From: Gemmatimonadota bacterium
GTDB lineage: Bacteria; Gemmatimonadota; Gemmatimonadetes; Palauibacterales; Palauibacteraceae
NCBI GenBank assembly: GCA_020351855.1
Contig: CP070670.1
Location: 322,259-378,988 of the forward strand
Length of the DNA stretch: 56,730 nucleotides
Reading direction: 5' to 3'
The position numbers and the translations under genes are program-made. The notes beneath the pieces are model-generated. The model did not search any database. It had not been told where the DNA came from and saw only the letters and a program-made list of their open reading frames with translations. Shown one piece after another: positions 34,995 through 43,410 of this stretch. Within the stretch, counting starts at the first letter, position 1; every line of letters starts with the position of its first letter.

Positions 34995-36080
34995 GTGGGC
35001 ACGATCTTCTTTACCGGCTTTCCGGGCTTCCTCGGTACGGCGCTGCTTCCGAGGGTCCTGGCCGGTCGTGATGACGGGTCTGCCGCTTGCCTGGTCCAGC
35101 CGAAGTACGCTGCCCTGGCGCGTCGCCGTCTCGCGCGCCTGGAGGCGGAAGCACCGGGTCTCGGCGGGCGTATCCTACTGGTGGAGGGGGATCTTGCGGA
35201 GCCCGGTATGGGCCTCGCGGCGGCGTCGCAGCTCGCCTCGCGCACGACCGAGATCTACCACCTGGCCGCCATCTACGACTTGGAAGTCTCCCGTCCTGTG
35301 GCGATGCGGGTCAATGTGGAGGGTACCCGAAGGGTCGTAGCGTTCGCCCGGCAGTGCGCATCTCTCCGGCGCCTGCACTACGTGAGCACCTGCTACGTGA
35401 GTGGACGCCATCCGGGGGTCTTCGGGGAGGCGGACCTAGATGTGGGCCAGCGCTTCAACAACGCCTACGAGGAGACGAAGTTTCTCGCAGAGCAGGAGGT
35501 GCAAGAGGCCATGCACGGAGGTTTGCCCACGACGATCTACCGGCCGGCGATCGTGGTGGGAGACAGCGATACCGGTGCGACGCAGAAGTATGACGGCCCC
35601 TACCACCTCGTACGCCTGCTGCTTCGCCAGCCCCACCTGGCCTTCCTGCCCCTCGTCGGCAACTCGGCGGCGAGCAGGGTGACCTTGATCCCGCGCGACG
35701 TGGTGATCGCGGCGATCGATTTCCTCGCCCGGCGGGAGCGGTCTCTTGGGCGCGTATACCAGCTTGCCGATCCGGATCCCCCCACCGTCCGCGAGACCGC
35801 AGAGATCCTGGCGAAAGCGCTCCGCAAACGGCTGGTCAGTGTGCGCGTTCCGAGAAGGCTGGCCGGCCGGGCGCTGGAGAACCGCTTAGTCCGAAGGGTG
35901 GTTGGAATCCCGCCCGCGCTCATCGACTACTTCACCCACCCGACCCGATACTCGGTTACCCAGGCGGAGGCGGACCTCGATGGGAGTGGCGTGGTGCTGC
36001 CGTCGTTCCGCTCTTACGCGGAGCGCATTGTCTCCTTTGTGGAGGAGAACCCCGACATGGACGACGCCCCGATGGCGTGA
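34995..36080 (+). CDS. Extended SDR, thioester-reductase / fatty-acyl-reductase-like
   Basis: 361 residues from GTG 34995. NAD(P)-binding glycine motif TGFPGFLGTALL, downstream acidic DLAE turn (VEGDLAEPGMGL), serine in YVSTCYVSG and the YxxxK catalytic pair in NAYEETKFLAEQEV. The segment HLAAIYDLEVSRPVAMRVNV, with its NVEGTRR extension, is characteristic of the NAD-binding-4 branch that includes carboxylic and fatty-acyl thioester reductases. With the aldehyde dehydrogenase upstream it could interconvert acyl and aldehyde forms of one substrate (inference). Its last 67 bp overlap the end of the convergent DUF2867 gene. Confidence 0.85.
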   Translation: MGTIFFTGFPGFLGTALLPRVLAGRDDGSAACLVQPKYAALARRRLARLEAEAPGLGGRILLVEGDLAEPGMGLAAASQLASRTTEIYHLAAIYDLEVSRPVAMRVNVEGTRRVVAFARQCASLRRLHYVSTCYVSGRHPGVFGEADLDVGQRFNNAYEETKFLAEQEVQEAMHGGLPTTIYRPAIVVGDSDTGATQKYDGPYHLVRLLLRQPHLAFLPLVGNSAASRVTLIPRDVVIAAIDFLARRERSLGRVYQLADPDPPTVRETAEILAKALRKRLVSVRVPRRLAGRALENRLVRRVVGIPPALIDYFTHPTRYSVTQAEADLDGSGVVLPSFRSYAERIVSFVEENPDMDDAPMA

Positions 36081-37588
36081 CCGACCGGCTCGTCGTCCGC
36101 CCCCTCACCGGTGGGTGGGAGCTTCCGCGAGTCCGCTACGGCGGCTCGGGCGATCCCCCGAAGCATGCCCCGGAAGAGCACGACGTGGACGGGATACATC
36201 GCGTACCAGTAGAGGAGGCCTGAAAGGCCAACCGGATCGAACATGGAGGTCTGCCGGATGCAGCTGGCGAATGCCGCATCGTCCGGCACGACGTTCCCAA
36301 CCGGCTCGACTTCGAACTGGAGCCAGGCGCGACCCGGGAGCTTCATCTCGGCGTGCAGGGTGAGGAGTCTGTCGGGCTCGTACGCCTCGACGCGCCAAAA
36401 GTCGACCGTGTCTCCGACGGACAGGTTCTCCGGGTCGCGCCGTCCTCGACGGGTCCCCACGCCCCCGACCAGAAGGTCCAGAAAGCCGCGGACTCCCCAC
36501 ATCCAGTTGCCGAAGTACCAACCGACACGCCCGCCGATCCGACGGATCGGTCGGAAGGCGACGGATGGGGCGGTTGAAACCTCGACGGACCGCGAGTCGA
36601 CGACGCGGCTGCCGAACCTCGTGCCCGCCCAGGATCTCTGCGGGGCCGTGGAGAGGGCATCGGACCAGCGGGTCTGAGCGAACTCTCGGTCCTCGTTGGC
36701 CAGGGCGCGGTCAATCGACTCCCGTATGTCGCGGGGCCGAACCTCGAACTCCCGCAGCGCAGCGTGATCACGCACCACGGTCGTGTTACGCATCCCGTCG
36801 ATGAGATGACGGCCCACGCGCGCATACACGGGTGTCACCAGCCCCAGCCACAGGCTGCTGAGGTAGGGCGTGAGCACCGGCACGGGGATCATGAGGCGCC
36901 GCAACCCGCGCTGGCGAGAGTACTCCTGCATGATCTCGCCATAGGACACGATCGAGCTCCCACCGATCTCGAACACGCGGCTGCCCTCGAGCGGGGAATC
37001 CAGCGCGGCCAGCAGATAGTCCAGAAGATCCTCGATGGCGATCGGCTGTGTGCGCGTCCTGACCCATGAGGGGGTGATCATAATCGGCAGCTTCTCGACC
37101 AACGCCCTCACCAACTCGAACGAGAAGCTTCCGCTGCCGATCACGATGGAGGCTCGGAACTCGACTGTCTGTACGCCTGATTCGCGCAGGAGACGTCCGA
37201 CTTCCTGACGGCTGCGCAGGTGATCGGAGAGATCGGGCCCCTCTCCGAGTCCGCCCAGGTATACGATCCGCCGGACGCCTGCCAGTCGGCAGGCCTGGCC
37301 GAAGTTGACCGCGGCCTTCCGATCCGCCTCGCCGAAGTCCTCCGAAGTGGCCATCGAGTGCACGAGATAGTAGGCGACGTCGATGCCCTCGAGCGCCCGG
37401 TCGAGCGATGGCCGGTCGAGGACGTCGCCCTGCACGACCTCCGTCGCGGGATCGACGCGTGCCTGGAGATAGTTCGGCCGACGGGCCAGGCACCGGACCC
37501 GCTCGTCGCGCTCCTCCAACAGGGTGAGCAACCGACCTCCGACATACCCGGAAGCTCCGGTGAGGAGGATGCGTCCTGCCGTTGACAT
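36014..37588 (-). CDS. SDR / NAD(P)-binding protein with DUF2867 C-terminal domain
   Basis: 524 residues. The N-terminal atypical SDR has the motif LLTGASGYVGGRLLTLLEER and GDVLDRPSLDRALEGIDVAY. A membrane-associated region (TPYLSSLWLGLVTPVYARVG) leads to the C-terminal DUF2867-like domain (WYFGNWMWGVRGFLDLLVGG ... GDTVDFWRVEAYEPDRLLTL ... VGLSGLLYWYAMYPVHVVLF). Such proteins are often next to photolyase and light-response genes, as here. The real substrate is unknown. Its coding end runs 67 bp into the convergent upstream SDR gene. Confidence 0.85.
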   Translation of the reverse strand: MSTAGRILLTGASGYVGGRLLTLLEERDERVRCLARRPNYLQARVDPATEVVQGDVLDRPSLDRALEGIDVAYYLVHSMATSEDFGEADRKAAVNFGQACRLAGVRRIVYLGGLGEGPDLSDHLRSRQEVGRLLRESGVQTVEFRASIVIGSGSFSFELVRALVEKLPIMITPSWVRTRTQPIAIEDLLDYLLAALDSPLEGSRVFEIGGSSIVSYGEIMQEYSRQRGLRRLMIPVPVLTPYLSSLWLGLVTPVYARVGRHLIDGMRNTTVVRDHAALREFEVRPRDIRESIDRALANEDREFAQTRWSDALSTAPQRSWAGTRFGSRVVDSRSVEVSTAPSVAFRPIRRIGGRVGWYFGNWMWGVRGFLDLLVGGVGTRRGRRDPENLSVGDTVDFWRVEAYEPDRLLTLHAEMKLPGRAWLQFEVEPVGNVVPDDAAFASCIRQTSMFDPVGLSGLLYWYAMYPVHVVLFRGMLRGIARAAVADSRKLPPTGEGADDEPVGHAIGASSMSGFSSTKETMRSA

Positions 37589-37603
37589 GTGCCCTCCCCG
37601 CGA

Positions 37604-38419
37604 TCAGTTGGCGGCCGGGGTAGCCGGGTGCGGCCCTGTCGATGGCCCGTGAGCGGGAAGTACAGATCCCAGTCCGCCATCTACGCCGATGACTTGGCCC
37701 GTGATCCAACTGTTACGCGGATCGAGCAGCCACGCAACAGCCCGAGCCACATCCTCGGGCTCACCGAGCCTCCCGAGCGCGTGTAGCGCCCGGGAGGCAC
37801 GGGCGGCTGCGGGCCGGCTGGTGATACGCTCCGTCAGCGGGGTCCGGGTCAGTCCCGGCGCTACGACATTGAAACGCAGTCCCGCGCCGGCGTAGGTGGC
37901 AGCCGCGGAGCGGGCCAGACCCACGATTCCGGCCTTGGCGGCTGCGATCGCCTCGTGGTTGGGAATCCCTATCGCCGCTGCCGCGGATCCCATGAGAACC
38001 ACCGAACCACCGCCGCTTCGCATGTGCGTGCCTGCCGCCCGGACGACGGCAAATGCCGAGCCCAGATTCACATCGATGACGTCTGCCCACTCCTCCGGCT
38101 TCGTCGCGTGCGCGGGCTTGAGCAGCAGCGAACCGACGCAGTTGGCGATGCCGTCCACTCGCCCGAAGGTCGAAGCGACATCACCCAGCCAGTCGGCCAC
38201 GGCAGGAGCATTCGTGGCGTCCAGCACCTTGAAGTCAGCACCCATCTCGCGGGCGAGGGACCGGAGTCGGCTTTCACCGCGTGCGGCGATTGCCAGCCGG
38301 GCTCCGGAGTCCCTCAGCAAGTAGCTGACCGATTCCCCGATGCCGCCCGTGGCTCCCAGAACCGCGAACACGGGGCCCTCGCCCAACGGGACGGGGTGGG
38401 GTTGAGGTGAGTACATCAC
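37604..38419 (-). CDS. Classical SDR-fold protein lacking the catalytic tyrosine
   Basis: 271 residues. The Rossmann start (FAVLGATGGIGESVSYLLRD), the DATN turn, the NCVG-type motif (GIANCVGSLLLKP), the serine strand (SVVLMGSAAAAIGIP) and the C-terminal cofactor loop (GRLGEPEDVARAVAWLLDP; GQVIGVDGGLGS) are all standard for oxidoreductases such as 3-oxoacyl-ACP reductases. The active-site YxxxK is replaced: the segment reads NHEAIAAAKAGIVGL, keeping lysine but with isoleucine where tyrosine should be. Many family members in public annotation share an NHEAIAAAKAG pattern, so this may be a real subfamily. It is 15 bp upstream of the DUF2867 gene in the same direction. Confidence 0.85.
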   Translation of the reverse strand: MMYSPQPHPVPLGEGPVFAVLGATGGIGESVSYLLRDSGARLAIAARGESRLRSLAREMGADFKVLDATNAPAVADWLGDVASTFGRVDGIANCVGSLLLKPAHATKPEEWADVIDVNLGSAFAVVRAAGTHMRSGGGSVVLMGSAAAAIGIPNHEAIAAAKAGIVGLARSAAATYAGAGLRFNVVAPGLTRTPLTERITSRPAAARASRALHALGRLGEPEDVARAVAWLLDPRNSWITGQVIGVDGGLGSVLPAHGPSTGPHPATPAAN

Positions 38420-38492
38420 AGGTCCGCACCCTTCGTCAATCTATGAGCAGCGGAGCGGGCAAGAGTGCCCGCTCCTTCGAATGAGACCGAGC

Positions 38493-39020
38493 TTATCGGC
38501 AGCCGGCCGGCTCATCGCGCGGCAGAATGACCGCATCGATCACGTGGATCACGCCGTTGCTGGCCGGAATGTCCGTCTTGAGGACCTTGGCCCCATCAAC
38601 CATGACGCCCGCATCGCTGGTCTTGATCGCGATCTTCTGCCCCTGAACGGTCTTCGCCTCCGAGAGCTTCACGACGTCCTTCGCCATGACCTTCCCGGGA
38701 ACCACATGGTAGGTCAGGATGGCCACCAGCTTATCCTTGTTCTCGGGCTTGAGGAGTTCCGCGACCGTGCCTTCCGGCAGCGCGCCGAACGCCTCATCCG
38801 TGGGAGCGAACACGGTGAACGGACCGTCGCTCTTGAGGACCTCGACGAGTCCGGCCGCCTTCACCGCCGCGACCAACGTCTCAAAGGATCCGGCGGAGAC
38901 GGCCACGTCGACGATGTCCATCGAGGCCGGCTTGGCATACGACGCCTGCTGGGCGAGCGCCGGGGAGGACGTGAAAGCGGCGAGCGCCGCGACGAGGGCA
39001 ATGCGAACACCTTTCATCAT
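38493..39020 (-). CDS. Secreted fasciclin (FAS1) domain protein
   Basis: 175 residues. Signal peptide ([17 protein letters not shown]) with cleavage near ALAQ. One complete FAS1 domain follows: [40 protein letters not shown] and the H2 box [16 protein letters not shown]1 proteins act in adhesion or envelope interactions. It ends with a short Cys-containing tail (PAGCR). Start ATG 39020 has GGAG 5 nt upstream, and a near-consensus promoter at 39094-39122 drives it. It is divergent from the photolyase gene. Confidence 0.9.
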
Positions 39021-39093
39021 ACCAACTCCATCGTGTTGTCGGACGCTGCTACGAACGCCCTACTATTCTCAATTGCACATCACCTAAGGGGCG

Positions 39094-39122
39094 AAAATAC
39101 GCATGGATCAGACGGTTGTCAA
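39094..39122 (-). promoter_or_regulatory. Predicted promoter of the fasciclin gene
   Basis: On the minus strand: TTGACA (39117-39122), 17-bp spacer, TATTTT (39094-39099). This is the best consensus match in the window. Leader to ATG 39020 is about 67 nt. Confidence 0.65.
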
Positions 39123-39143
39123 GCATTTGTCCAATACATCACA

Positions 39144-39173
39144 TTGACAAGCCCCGGGGCATCCGATTAAACT
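39144..39173 (+). promoter_or_regulatory. Predicted promoter of the photolyase operon
   Basis: TTGACA (39144-39149), 18-bp spacer, TAAACT (39168-39173). The -35 boxes of this and the fasciclin promoter are 21 bp apart on opposite strands, so one regulator bound between them could control both. Confidence 0.5.
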
Positions 39174-39322
39174 GCTCGCGTGGATGGGCAACCGATCGCA
39201 CGAAACGGAAGCCGGTTGAACGTGCTCGCAGCGCGCGACGCCCACGTGCCCACGAACCGCGCCGGCTTTCGGATGCTCCTGGACAGCCTTCGCTTGGCAG
39301 GTTAGACAGGGGGATGAGCCAA

Positions 39323-40807
39323 ATGAAGGGGTTTAGCGTTCCCGCGGTCCGACGGTCGGTTCTCAACGACCGAGACCCTGATCCGGCCGGATCCTTCGTC
39401 GTTTACTGGATGACCTCCTCGCGTCGACCCCACTGGAACTTCGCGCTCCAGCACGCTCGGGACTGGGCGCGACAGCTCGGAAAGCCTCTGGTCGTGCTCG
39501 AGGCGCTGCGAAGCGATTACCGCTGGGCGAGTGACCGAATGCACCGGTTCGTCGTGCAGGGGATGGTCGATCACGCGAAGGAGTTCGCTCGTCGCGGGAT
39601 CACCTACTATGCCTACGTGGAACCGGAGCCAGGCGCGGGCAGGGGGCTCCTGGCGGCCATCGCGGCCGACGCCTGCCTCGTCGTGGGCGACGAGTATCCG
39701 GCATTCTTCCTTCCCCGCATGGTGGAGTCGGCGCGCAAGATCCCGATTCGTCTCGAGACGGTGGACTCGAACGGTCTCCTTCCGCTTCGCGCCGCCGATC
39801 GCGTCTTTCCGACCGCATACGCCTTTCGGCGCTTCCTGCAGCGGGAGCTGCCACGGCACCTCGCGCAGCGACCCGAGCGGGATCCGCTGGCGACCGCGCC
39901 GCCGGAAGCGGCGAATCTTGCGCCGAACGTCCTCCAGCGCTGGCCAGGCCTCGCTTCCGAGCCGTCACCGGACGGCCTCGATGACCTCATCGCCCGGCTG
40001 CCTATCGACCACCATGTTCCGCCTGTGTCCTACGAGGGGGGATGCGCCGCCGGTGCCGCCGGGCTGCGCGCGTTCGTCGCCGGTAGGCTTGAGCACTATG
40101 CGGAGAAGCGGAACGATCCGACCGAGCCTGCTACCAGCCGGCTTTCGCCGTACCTGCACTTCGGACATGTGGGGGCGCATCAGGTCTTCGAGGCCGTGGC
40201 CCGAGCAGAGGATTGGGAGCCCGACAGACTGGCGGACTCGGCGGGCGGGAAGCGGCGGGGCTGGTGGGGGATGTCGGAGTCGGCCGAGGCTTTCCTCGAC
40301 GAGCTCGTCACGTGGCGCGAACTGGGCTTCAACCGCTGTGCCCGAACAGGGGACTATGACCGCTTTGAGTCCCTGCCCGACTGGGCCCGCGAGACGCTCA
40401 GCGACCACGCAGACGACGAGAGGCCGTACCTCTATTCACGGGAGGAGCTGGAGGCGGCAGAGACACACGACCAGATCTGGAACGCGGCTCAGCGTGAGCT
40501 GCGAGTCGAAGGTCGCATCCACGGCTACCTTCGGATGCTGTGGGGCAAGAAGATCCTGGAGTGGTCGAAGACGCCGCGGGAGGCGCTCCAGGTGATGATC
40601 GAGCTCAACAACCGTTGGGCCGTGGACGGGCGCGACCCGAACTCCTACAGCGGCATCTTCTGGGTGCTGGGCCGCTATGACCGCCCCTGGGGCCCTGAGC
40701 GTCCCGTGTTCGGGAAGATTCGATACATGACCTCCGAGAACACCGCCCGCAAGTACAGACTTCAGACCTACCTCGAACGGTACGGTGACGACGCGAAGCA
40801 CCTTTAG
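39323..40807 (+). CDS. phrB: Class II CPD photolyase
   Basis: 494 residues from ATG 39323 (GGGGG 9 nt upstream; ATG 39314 is also possible). It repairs cyclobutane pyrimidine dimers with light and FAD. Features of class II enzymes are visible: VVYWMTSSRRPHWNFALQHA near the start, LSPYLHFGHVGAHQVFEAVA, and the FAD-site block SESAEAFLDELVTWRELGFN. A later block EGRIHGYLRMLWGKKILEWS with MIELNNRWAVDGRDPNSYSG is also typical of class II. It is the first gene of an operon with the FeS photolyase, whose start lies 23 bp inside it. Confidence 0.92.
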   Translation: MKGFSVPAVRRSVLNDRDPDPAGSFVVYWMTSSRRPHWNFALQHARDWARQLGKPLVVLEALRSDYRWASDRMHRFVVQGMVDHAKEFARRGITYYAYVEPEPGAGRGLLAAIAADACLVVGDEYPAFFLPRMVESARKIPIRLETVDSNGLLPLRAADRVFPTAYAFRRFLQRELPRHLAQRPERDPLATAPPEAANLAPNVLQRWPGLASEPSPDGLDDLIARLPIDHHVPPVSYEGGCAAGAAGLRAFVAGRLEHYAEKRNDPTEPATSRLSPYLHFGHVGAHQVFEAVARAEDWEPDRLADSAGGKRRGWWGMSESAEAFLDELVTWRELGFNRCARTGDYDRFESLPDWARETLSDHADDERPYLYSREELEAAETHDQIWNAAQRELRVEGRIHGYLRMLWGKKILEWSKTPREALQVMIELNNRWAVDGRDPNSYSGIFWVLGRYDRPWGPERPVFGKIRYMTSENTARKYRLQTYLERYGDDAKHL

Positions 40808-42416
40808 CAGACTGCTGTCGAACCACGCTGGCGATCCTGGCCGGCCCATCTGGGTGTTCGTCCCCTACGACCAGCTGACCGACCGGATAGGCCCGCTCGC
40901 CAGGCACGGGCCCGAGGAGATCGGGATCGTGCTCGTCGAGAGCCGGTGGAAGGCATGCAGGCGGCCCTACCACAAGCAGAAGCTTGCCCTGGTTCTCGCC
41001 AACATGAGGCACTTCGCCCTCGAGCAGGCGCGCCGCGGCGTGGCCGTCCGGTATCTGATGGCAGACGGTCCCTACCGCGAGGCGCTACGACCGGTCGCGG
41101 AGGAGCTGGGGCCGCTGATGGTGATGGAGCCGGCCGAGCGAGAGCTTCGGGTGGACCTGGCGCCGCTCTTCACGGCCGGCTTGCTTCTTCTGCGACCGCA
41201 CGAGGGCTGGCTCACCTCGAGCGAGCAGTTCGCGGCCAGCCAGGATGGCCCGCCGTGGCGAATGGACCCGTTCTACCGTCACGTGCGGAAGGAGACGGGG
41301 GTGCTCATGGAGGGTGGCCGGCCGGCGGGCGGCCGCTTCAGCCTGGACGCGGAGAACCGCCGCCCTTGGCCTGGCGAGCCGCCCGCCCCATCCGCACCGG
41401 ACTTTCCGGTGGACGACATCAAGGCCGAGGTCGCCGAACTGGTGGAGGCGGTCTTCGCGGATCACCCGGGGGAGCTCGATCTCGATCACCTTCCCGCAAC
41501 CCGGGTGGACGCCGATCACCTGTGGAGCTGGGCAAAGGAAGAGTGCCTGGTGCACTTCGGTCCCTTCGAGGACGCGATGTCCCGTCGCTCCGGAGGTCTG
41601 TTCCACACTCGGGTGAGTGCGCTGCTGAATCTGCACCGCCTGCTGCCGGCTCAGGTGGTGGGCGATGCCTTGGCGCTTGACCTGCCGCTCGCGAGCCAGG
41701 AGGGGTTCGTCCGGCAGGTCATGGGATGGCGGGAGTTCGTGCGTCACGTCCACGCGGCGACGGATGGCTTTCGGTGCGGGCCGGAGGGCTTCGCCTTGGA
41801 GTCCGGTGGTGTGTCCGCCGAACGGTCGTTCGCGGCTGGTGAGGACCGGCCCGGCGCCCCGGACTTTCTTGGCGCGGCGACGCCGCTGCCTCCCGCCTAC
41901 TGGGGCACACCCTCCGGTCTCGCCTGCCTGGACCAGGTGGTGGGCCAGGTATGGCGAGAGGGCTGGAGCCACCATATCACGCGGCTCATGGTGCTCAGCA
42001 ATATCGCCCTCCTCATCGACGTGGACCCGAGGGAACTGACCGACTGGTTCTGGATTGCATACGCGGACGCCTTCGACTGGGTCGTCGAGCCGAACGTGCT
42101 CGGGATGGGTGCCTTCGCGGCAGGGGAGCTCATGACCACCAAGCCCTACGTGTCCGGCTCGAACTACATCGCCAAGATGAGCGATTTCTGTGATTCATGC
42201 GCCTTCGATCCGGACGTGTCGTGTCCGTTGCGCGACCTCTACTGGGCCTTCCTCGCCCGGCACGAGGAGAAGCTGGCGGGAATCCCCCGCATGCGGCTAC
42301 CGTACGCTTCGCTGGCGAAGCGCGGGGCGGAGCGACGCCGTCGGGATCAGAGGACCTTCGAGGCCGTCCGCCAGCGTCTCGGCGATGGGCAGATTCTCAG
42401 CCCGCCGCCTCCATGA
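40785..42416 (+). CDS. FeS-type bacterial cryptochrome / (6-4) photolyase (DPRP family)
   Basis: 543 residues. Matches the deoxyribodipyrimidine-photolyase-related family (CryB/PhrB): VFVPYDQLTDRIGPLARH at the start, KLALVLANMRHFALEQARRG, and FVRQVMGWREFVRHVH near the FAD site. Four cysteines, C381, C469, C472 and C480, are candidates for the [4Fe-4S] cluster; the 381-469-472 spacings (88 and 3) match the family as I recall it, but the last gap is 8 rather than about 13. (6-4) repair is the known role of PhrB. The GTG start lies inside the end of the class II photolyase gene, so the two are coupled. Confidence 0.9.
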   Translation: MTTRSTFSRLLSNHAGDPGRPIWVFVPYDQLTDRIGPLARHGPEEIGIVLVESRWKACRRPYHKQKLALVLANMRHFALEQARRGVAVRYLMADGPYREALRPVAEELGPLMVMEPAERELRVDLAPLFTAGLLLLRPHEGWLTSSEQFAASQDGPPWRMDPFYRHVRKETGVLMEGGRPAGGRFSLDAENRRPWPGEPPAPSAPDFPVDDIKAEVAELVEAVFADHPGELDLDHLPATRVDADHLWSWAKEECLVHFGPFEDAMSRRSGGLFHTRVSALLNLHRLLPAQVVGDALALDLPLASQEGFVRQVMGWREFVRHVHAATDGFRCGPEGFALESGGVSAERSFAAGEDRPGAPDFLGAATPLPPAYWGTPSGLACLDQVVGQVWREGWSHHITRLMVLSNIALLIDVDPRELTDWFWIAYADAFDWVVEPNVLGMGAFAAGELMTTKPYVSGSNYIAKMSDFCDSCAFDPDVSCPLRDLYWAFLARHEEKLAGIPRMRLPYASLAKRGAERRRRDQRTFEAVRQRLGDGQILSPPPP

Positions 42417-42441
42417 GATCCATCGCCCTGCGGGAGGTGGG

Positions 42442-43410
42442 ATGACCGAGTTTGCTCGACCGCGGCTCGTCCTGAGCCGCTGTTTGGAGCTCGAAAAGGT
42501 CAGGTATAACGGCGAGAAGATCGCCTACGACTTCGTGCGCGAGCTCGAACCGTTCGTCGACCTCGTCCCGATCTGCCCCGAGGTGGAGATCGGCCTGGGC
42601 GTGCCGCGGGATCCGATCCGCCTGGTGGTAGGGGAGGACGGGGTGCGCCTCTACCAACCTTCGACGCGGCGCGATCTGACCCTCGCCATGCAGGAGTTCG
42701 GCGACACGTTCCTGTCCGGGCTGCCGCCGGTCGATGGATTCGTGCTGAAGAACCGCTCCCCGTCCTGCGGGATCAGCGACGTGAAGCTTCACACCCCCGA
42801 TGGGATGCCGGCCTCTTCCGGGAAGCGGGCCGGGATGTTCGGTCAGGCGGTGATCGATCGGTTCGGCGACCTGGCAGTCGAGGATGAGGGCAGGCTGCGC
42901 AACTTCCGGATCCGGGAGCACTTCCTCACGAAACTCTTCGCTCTGGCCGCGCTCCGTCAGGTCGAGGATTCCACCGCCATACGGGACCTGATCGACTTCC
43001 ACGCTCGCTACAAGTTCGTGCTCATGGCATACAGCCAGAAGGGCCTGCGAGAGCTCGGACGCCTCGTGGCCAACGGCCGCGACCTCGCGTTGGACGATCT
43101 GATGGCCCGATACCGCGTCGGGTTCGCGGCTGCCCTGCGCCGGCCTCCCAAGTACACTTCGGTCATCAACGTGCTCGATCACGCCGCGGGATACTTCAAG
43201 CGGACGCTGGATGGACGAGAGAAGGCGATGTTCAGAAGGCAGGTCGATCGGTACCGGAGCGGACGTCTGCCCCTCGCCGGTGTGACGGCCGTTCTGTGGG
43301 CGTGGGTCATCCGGGAGGACGAGGCTTACCTGCAGGGGCAGGCCTTCTTTCAGCCCTACCCGGACGAGCTGATGAGCGTGTCGGATTCGGGCAAAGGTCG
43401 AAAGATATGA
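42442..43410 (+). CDS. DUF523-DUF1722 protein (YbgA-like)
   Basis: 322 residues from ATG 42442 with GGGAGG upstream. The N-terminal DUF523 half carries cysteine motifs (LVLSRCLELEKVRYNGEKIA; DGFVLKNRSPSCGISDVKLH) and the C-terminal DUF1722 half has FLTKLFALAALRQVEDSTAI, YSQKGLRELGRLV and CTS-like SVINVLDHAAGYFKRTLDGR. In E. coli the DUF1722 protein YbgA is encoded beside the photolyase gene, matching the position here 25 bp after the FeS photolyase. Function is not established. Its stop overlaps the next gene as ATGA. Confidence 0.9.
   Translation: MTEFARPRLVLSRCLELEKVRYNGEKIAYDFVRELEPFVDLVPICPEVEIGLGVPRDPIRLVVGEDGVRLYQPSTRRDLTLAMQEFGDTFLSGLPPVDGFVLKNRSPSCGISDVKLHTPDGMPASSGKRAGMFGQAVIDRFGDLAVEDEGRLRNFRIREHFLTKLFALAALRQVEDSTAIRDLIDFHARYKFVLMAYSQKGLRELGRLVANGRDLALDDLMARYRVGFAAALRRPPKYTSVINVLDHAAGYFKRTLDGREKAMFRRQVDRYRSGRLPLAGVTAVLWAWVIREDEAYLQGQAFFQPYPDELMSVSDSGKGRKI

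Follow-up and report, generated by a model that had tools for sequence, protein, structure and literature searches.

What holds the two sides of a short intergenic region in a Gemmatimonadota genome under common control, if anything does, is the question raised by the locus described here. The region lies within a 56,730-nucleotide stretch of DNA (hereafter the window), and its 293 bp separate a fasciclin gene from a photolyase gene and contain an inverted pair of TTGACA boxes. A preliminary description, made from the sequence alone, had proposed two such boxes on opposite strands, 21 bp apart and with outward −10 elements, and had guessed that one regulator seated between them, possibly of the CarH/LitR type and responding to light, could control both genes. 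The layout was confirmed: TGTCAA-N21-TTGACA spans positions 39117–39149, and the candidate −10 boxes found by a promoter scan both face outward (Table 1). The 21-bp spacing was right too, but the inter-box letters quoted were short by three bases, the full 21-nt sequence being GCATTTGTCCAATACATCACA. Both gene names hold, that of the fasciclin gene by PF02469 and that of the photolyase even though its PF00875 score (26.2 bits) lies slightly under the cut-off of 26.6 and its best NCBIfam match, TIGR00591 ‘phr2’ (388.5 bits), lies under the curated cut-off of 550. From the phr2 model, we take the photolyase to be class II CPD-like.

Table 1. Elements of the promoter site, flanking genes and the predicted regulator (window positions unless a contig is given).
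Feature	Position	Strand	Remarks
TTGACA	39117–39122	−	Putative −35 of fasciclin promoter and CarH-type word (TnnACA); invariant in window and five aligned related sites
TGGACA	39128–39133	−	Second minus-strand word, 11 bp from first; its TGTC (plus-strand reading) is shared by all six aligned sites
AATACA	39133–39138	+	Imperfect plus-strand word, ACA retained; 11 bp upstream of photolyase −35
TTGACA	39144–39149	+	Putative −35 of photolyase promoter and plus-strand word; 5/6 letters invariant in the six aligned sites
TATTTT	39094–39099	−	Candidate −10 for fasciclin gene, spacer 17
TAAACT	39168–39173	+	Candidate −10 for photolyase gene, spacer 18
41-codon frame	39180–39305	+	Weak candidate for the 3′ end of a lost carH; scores 6.8 bits with a C-terminal CarH profile
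NAD(P)-binding + DUF2867 protein	36014–37588	−	PF11066/PF13460; fasciclin side
Short-chain dehydrogenase	37604–38419	−	PF13561; next gene on fasciclin side
Fasciclin-domain protein	38493–39020	−	Predicted target gene 1; PF02469 E 1.6e-40; signal-peptide-like N-terminus (by eye)
DNA photolyase	39314–40807	+	Predicted target gene 2; PF00875 and TIGR00591, both below cut-off
Deoxyribodipyrimidine photolyase-related protein (DPRP)	40785–42416	+	PF04244 E 7.4e-47; probable same operon as photolyase
TudS-DUF1722 fusion, RudS-type tRNA 4-thiouridine eraser	42409–43410	+	PF04463 and PF08349; probable same operon as photolyase
MerR+B12 protein (L004)	C1:1092241–1093185		Predicted CarH; about 0.73 Mb from the window site

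The scan of positions 36000–43000 returned two promoters in total, both at this site, compared with an average of 0.5 in shuffled sequences. With any spacer of 15–27 bp allowed, one inverted pair was observed vs 0.007 expected per window (300 first-order Markov simulations), and the exact pattern occurs once in the 2.96-Mb genome. CarH operators are described as rows of nnnnTnnACAn repeats at 11-bp steps with the −35 element within one repeat (PMC9304148), and TnnACA words spaced in this way, one of them enclosing a −35, were found at 39117–39149. The canonical tandem form, with at least three same-strand repeats, some possibly imperfect, was not found there; as the site has only two minus-strand words and one perfect and one imperfect plus-strand word, it was classed as a variant architecture. 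By eye, the class II LitR word pair T(G/A)TACA-N12-TGTA(C/T)A was absent from 39094–39173.

The exact pattern was found at 20 sites in 16 of 100 related genomes (the window's own included), while the same pattern read backwards as a control gave no site in the 100 genomes. As the preliminary description had suggested checking, the arrangement recurs upstream of photolyase genes, and above all upstream of carH: 16 of the 20 sites adjoin carH itself, and a CarH-like B12 repressor is encoded in all 16 genomes with a site. With CarH-positive genomes defined by a match to the window genome's own MerR+B12 protein at E ≤ 1.2e-31, a cut of our own choosing that includes 27 of the 100, the sites were confined to these 27 and absent from the other 73 (p about 1e-11 with relatedness ignored, a statistic that shared ancestry among the genomes inflates); the exact pattern is missing from 11 of the 27. 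Partial CarH matches in G013 (2.3e-19) and G068 (2.4e-23) fall outside the cut, and neither genome has a site. When weak or partial single-domain matches are counted (E ≤ 0.001), 99 of the 100 genomes match the query somewhere, so that the tie between CarH and the site depends on the chosen cut. Photolyase-positive genomes, defined by a cut likewise chosen by us (E ≤ 3e-95), numbered 30, and the site was present in none of the 11 among them without a strong CarH match.

In an alignment of the 20 exact sites as 40 half-sites on TTGACA, TnnACA stood 11 bp upstream in 13 half-sites and 11 bp downstream in seven (18 and 10, respectively, when ACA alone is counted); the other offsets averaged 0.225 across the 40 half-sites when multiples of 11 and ±27 were excluded. 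TAnnnT was present at a spacer of 17 in 20 half-sites, at a spacer of 18 in four and at each of the remaining spacers between 8 and 33 in four at most; at spacers of 16–19 it occurred on both sides in 10 of the 20 sites, on one side in seven and on neither in three. TnnACA was also seen at +31 and at +42 from TTGACA, offsets themselves 11 apart, in five half-sites each; these words suggest that some relatives, such as L072, have a further tandem pair close to where transcripts would be expected to start, possibly a second CarH unit.

Spacing was also examined upstream of carH genes. A pool of 35 such regions (same-strand words 11 bp apart in 24; divergent words 27 bp apart in 20, 16 bp in 13 and 38 bp in nine) had been fetched partly by the operator pattern, and the test was therefore rerun, to avoid circularity, on the 31 regions whose loci came from protein searches only. 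Same-strand words 11 bp apart were found in 21 of the 31; divergent words were separated by 27 bp in 16 regions, by 16 bp in 10 and by 38 bp in eight, compared with a mean of about 0.1 per distance in mononucleotide shuffles; the exact N21 pattern was present in 12. The half-site offsets and these spacings together point to one common four-word design, which in its full form in relatives is TGTnnA-N5-TGTnnA-N10-TnnACA-N5-TnnACA, with one tandem 11-bp pair on each strand. A search for the four words in 295 genomes of the class, with TGTC and GACA required in the outer words and a gap of 9–12 bp, returned 16 sites in 15 genomes (gap of 10 bp in 13, 9 in two and 11 in one), and the design read backwards returned no site in the same 295. 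The window site has three of these words and, at the outer position on the photolyase side, reads CGGGGC in place of the fourth; the absence of any match to the four-word pattern in its own genome at up to three mismatches fits this missing word. With one perfect and one imperfect word, the photolyase side may be the weaker. The preliminary description would have given way had the inter-box sequence been free of constraint; constraint was seen, mainly at the inner 11-bp repeat word. When the window site was aligned with five related sites, TGTCAA, the TGTC of the inner word, five letters of TTGACA and three further columns were invariant.

Pooling of the exact-pattern (100 genomes) and four-word (295 genomes) searches gave 32 distinct operators, 22 of which adjoin carH and 17 a fasciclin gene. 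Three lie directly between fasciclin and photolyase genes (the window site, G035 and G020:C60), and four face none of carH, fasciclin and photolyase within 700 bp; a copy in G132 also faces a carotenoid-synthesis gene. Across from carH, four relatives have SRPBCC genes that look alike and two have proline dehydrogenase genes (one of each scanned). At G006:C68:19351–19405 (L136/L138), an opposed-repeat operator lies between fasciclin-like and Cu/Zn superoxide dismutase genes and overlaps a three-repeat one-strand array.

CarH homologues are defined by the motifs Wx9EH and ExHx2G…GG (PMC8156234). The CarH/LitR-type regulator that had been guessed at has a counterpart in the window's own genome, a MerR+B12 protein with both signature motifs. 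It combines MerR-type DNA-binding, B12-binding_2 and B12-binding domains, all above their cut-offs (PF13411, 58.7 bits; PF02310, 43.5 bits; PF02607, 23.8 bits with a cut-off of 23). The Wx9EH motif reads WRMGRLGPSQEH and is shared by 23 of 27 aligned proteins, this one included; the B12 motif ExHx2G…SxV/T…GG is present as EEHELG with the downstream S..GG spacing. Most relatives' CarH proteins have Q in place of the motif E, and the His is present in all 27 aligned rows (by eye). The protein matches T. thermophilus CarH structures (E 5e-32), and its best family match is the NCBIfam CarH equivalog NF052513 at 128.7 bits, below the cut-off of 400, so that it is not called an equivalog. It was the one protein found in the genome with both MerR and B12 domains, beside two further MerR_1 matches. 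The gene itself shows no operator that could be recognised: no TTGACA was found in L004, and only isolated words occur within 260 bp upstream. The CarH protein of L097 is canonical in Wx9EH. Photolyase-linked CarH paralogues (L064, L072, L077 and L078, in G004, G037, G041 and G042) have Wx9ER instead of Wx9EH but retain the B12-binding histidine, and their light sensing may differ.

Three perfect same-strand 11-bp repeats, TTGACA-N5-TGAACA-N5-TGTACA, were also observed over the promoter of a TspO/MBR gene in the window's own genome (G000:C1:677912–677939, L137), and the same layout precedes tspO in same-genus G004 (G004:C22:51716). When exact three-repeat matches were required, the 100 genomes yielded three sites and the control yielded none. 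With one mismatch allowed, the own genome gave one three-repeat match vs one in the control and nine two-word matches vs eight; because the latter are close to the control, only the perfect tspO site was used. Its canonical CarH layout supports the reading of TnnACA words by the genome's own CarH.

Gene order bears on how the site came to lack an adjacent carH. G004:C15 has the order fasciclin, site, carH, photolyase and RudS-type gene, and the window has the same order minus carH and with the DPRP gene added after the photolyase. The own CarH is related instead to the other G004 copy, at C22 (61% identity), with which it groups in a tree used solely for this purpose (support 97/100). Taken together, the G004:C15 order and this kinship make it likely that the linked carH was lost in the window lineage, leaving the photolyase behind the carH promoter. 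We propose that the site was ancestrally carH's own autoregulatory promoter and operator, shared with the divergent fasciclin gene. The 6.8 bits of the putative remnant frame were reached by 18 of 5000 shuffles and by none of 688 other frames of the window; a full-length CarH profile run on the six frames did not return it among the matches listed.

The surrounding genes fit a light or UV response. On the fasciclin side, the short-chain dehydrogenase gene, which probably is cotranscribed with the fasciclin gene, also follows fasciclin in G004:C15, G020:C60, G037, G041:C129 and G042:C351, and a relative of the NAD(P)-binding/DUF2867 gene adjoins an operator copy in G040. Fasciclin RSP_1409 of Rhodobacter sphaeroides is listed as induced under photooxidative stress (PMC7074977, table), and Gemmatimonas phototrophica is described as showing a fast light response of two photolyases (PMC11406998). 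RudS removes a near-UV-sensitive tRNA modification and has been reported to occur frequently in light-responsive operons, one of which is LitR-controlled and includes a photolyase (PMC11417400). The TudS-DUF1722 gene downstream of the two photolyase-family genes would probably encode a light-induced tRNA 4-thiouridine eraser. A search of genome contigs with the photolyase retrieved eight loci, one a Gemmatimonadetes record (63% over 167 residues) and the others from Planctomycetota and other MAGs; no carH match and no operator of the window type was found in the retrieved DNA of these eight.

Considering these results, we propose, with good confidence, that two sigma-70 promoters placed back to back are overlaid here by an operator of the CarH type. 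As long as it is dark, CarH carrying adenosylcobalamin would occupy the 11-bp TnnACA words and with them both −35 boxes, so that the fasciclin/dehydrogenase/DUF2867 side and the photolyase/DPRP/RudS side would be shut off at the same time. Light would break the cobalt–carbon bond, and CarH would fall off, allowing transcription of both sides. Because the adjacent carH would have been lost in this lineage, the photolyase would have taken its place and the remaining CarH would act in trans. The repeat geometry, its conservation, the tie to carH, the gene order and the CarH motifs are legible in the sequence; binding, repression, light release, the loss event and the action in trans are what we infer. 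The joint guess of one regulator, light and CarH is well supported by the sequence; the 11-bp repeats, the putative ancestral role as carH's promoter and operator, and the missing carH go beyond it. More speculatively, and rather less likely than not in our view, the operator in this bacterial group may be two-fold symmetric, a CarH tetramer (a dimer of head-to-tail dimers) placing one dimer on each opposed tandem pair, so that one tetramer, as opposed to two separately bound units, would shut both divergent promoters with all four DNA-binding domains; the lineage would later have lost the linked repressor and rewired the photolyase to the unlinked CarH.

Divergent promoters are common, and each of the two hexamers is a perfect −35 box followed by a plausible −10, so that the site might simply comprise ordinary back-to-back sigma-70 promoters with no common regulator, the inverted repeat being two −35 boxes only. 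A 27-bp offset fixed in 16 genomes and repeat words at 11 bp that no promoter needs are, however, at odds with this explanation, as are the carH tie and the absence of the site from the 73 genomes without a strong CarH match, and we regard it as very improbable. The words could instead be read by another DNA-binding protein, either a B12-independent CarA-like or Wx9ER paralogue or another MerR protein. Candidates do exist, namely the photolyase-linked Wx9ER paralogues of the four genomes named above and the two further MerR_1 matches in the own genome; the sole MerR+B12 protein found there nevertheless has canonical motifs, and in many relatives the site adjoins canonical Wx9EH carH genes, which makes such a reader unlikely.

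Lastly, the site could be a decaying relic, an operator non-regulatory since the local loss of carH with the promoters alone persisting. The fourth word is gone, the inner word on the photolyase side is imperfect, and carH is missing beside the site, with its possible remnant nearby. Against such decay, the six aligned sites share TGTCAA, the inner-word TGTC and most of TTGACA although the bases around these mostly vary, and a CarH-like gene and the perfect three-repeat tspO site survive in the own genome; we give this account little credence.

The window site is apparently a two-way CarH operator, served in trans and unlike the one-strand CarH arrays described. A conserved operator built of opposed pairs would suggest that CarH, a photoreceptor used in optogenetics, can bind DNA in a second way, and would offer a ready-made light switch that works in both directions. 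Fasciclin proteins and a class II-like photolyase would then join the likely targets of CarH, and the pattern could be used to search for B12/light regulons in uncultured bacteria. Opposed CarH repeats were not found in the open PMC literature among the matches listed, no paper there brought LitR, photolyase and fasciclin together, and papers combining CarH, TspO and light included none on the topic, judged by title.

Compared with known systems, the site resembles the CarH operators of Thermus thermophilus, Bacillus megaterium and myxobacteria (PMC9304148; PMC8156234) in its 11-bp TnnACA words with the −35 inside a word; their repressor is AdoCbl-dependent and released by light, as proposed here. 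As described, CarH differs from other MerR proteins in reading direct repeats, not palindromes (PMC8156234), and the known operators are tandem one-strand arrays of three or four repeats, some imperfect, whereas two short opposed tandem pairs, mostly with a 10-bp gap, are found here. Targets differ as well, being mainly carH, fasciclin and photolyase genes here and carotenoid operons in the known systems. R. sphaeroides RSP_1409 places a fasciclin gene in light-related stress, in an alphaproteobacterium for which the available text of PMC7074977 mentions no CarH. The class II LitR sites of Pseudomonas, T(G/A)TACA-N12-TGTA(C/T)A, belong to the same LitR/CarH repressor family and differ in word and spacing; class II LitR keeps one of two B12-binding domains and works with a LOV protein in P. 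mendocina (PMC9758184). Its light-induced genes include photolyase, cryptochrome and SDR (PMC9758184), and RudS occurs in such an operon (PMC11417400), partly as here. For CarA of Myxococcus xanthus, the operator was formerly presented as two inverted repeats, which lie over a −35 as they do at the window site; in contrast to the opposed-repeat reading, recognition of direct repeats is suggested for CarA instead (PMC9304148). One operator over divergent promoters, as at the window site, has been described for Sorangium cellulosum (PMC9304148; PMC8156234).
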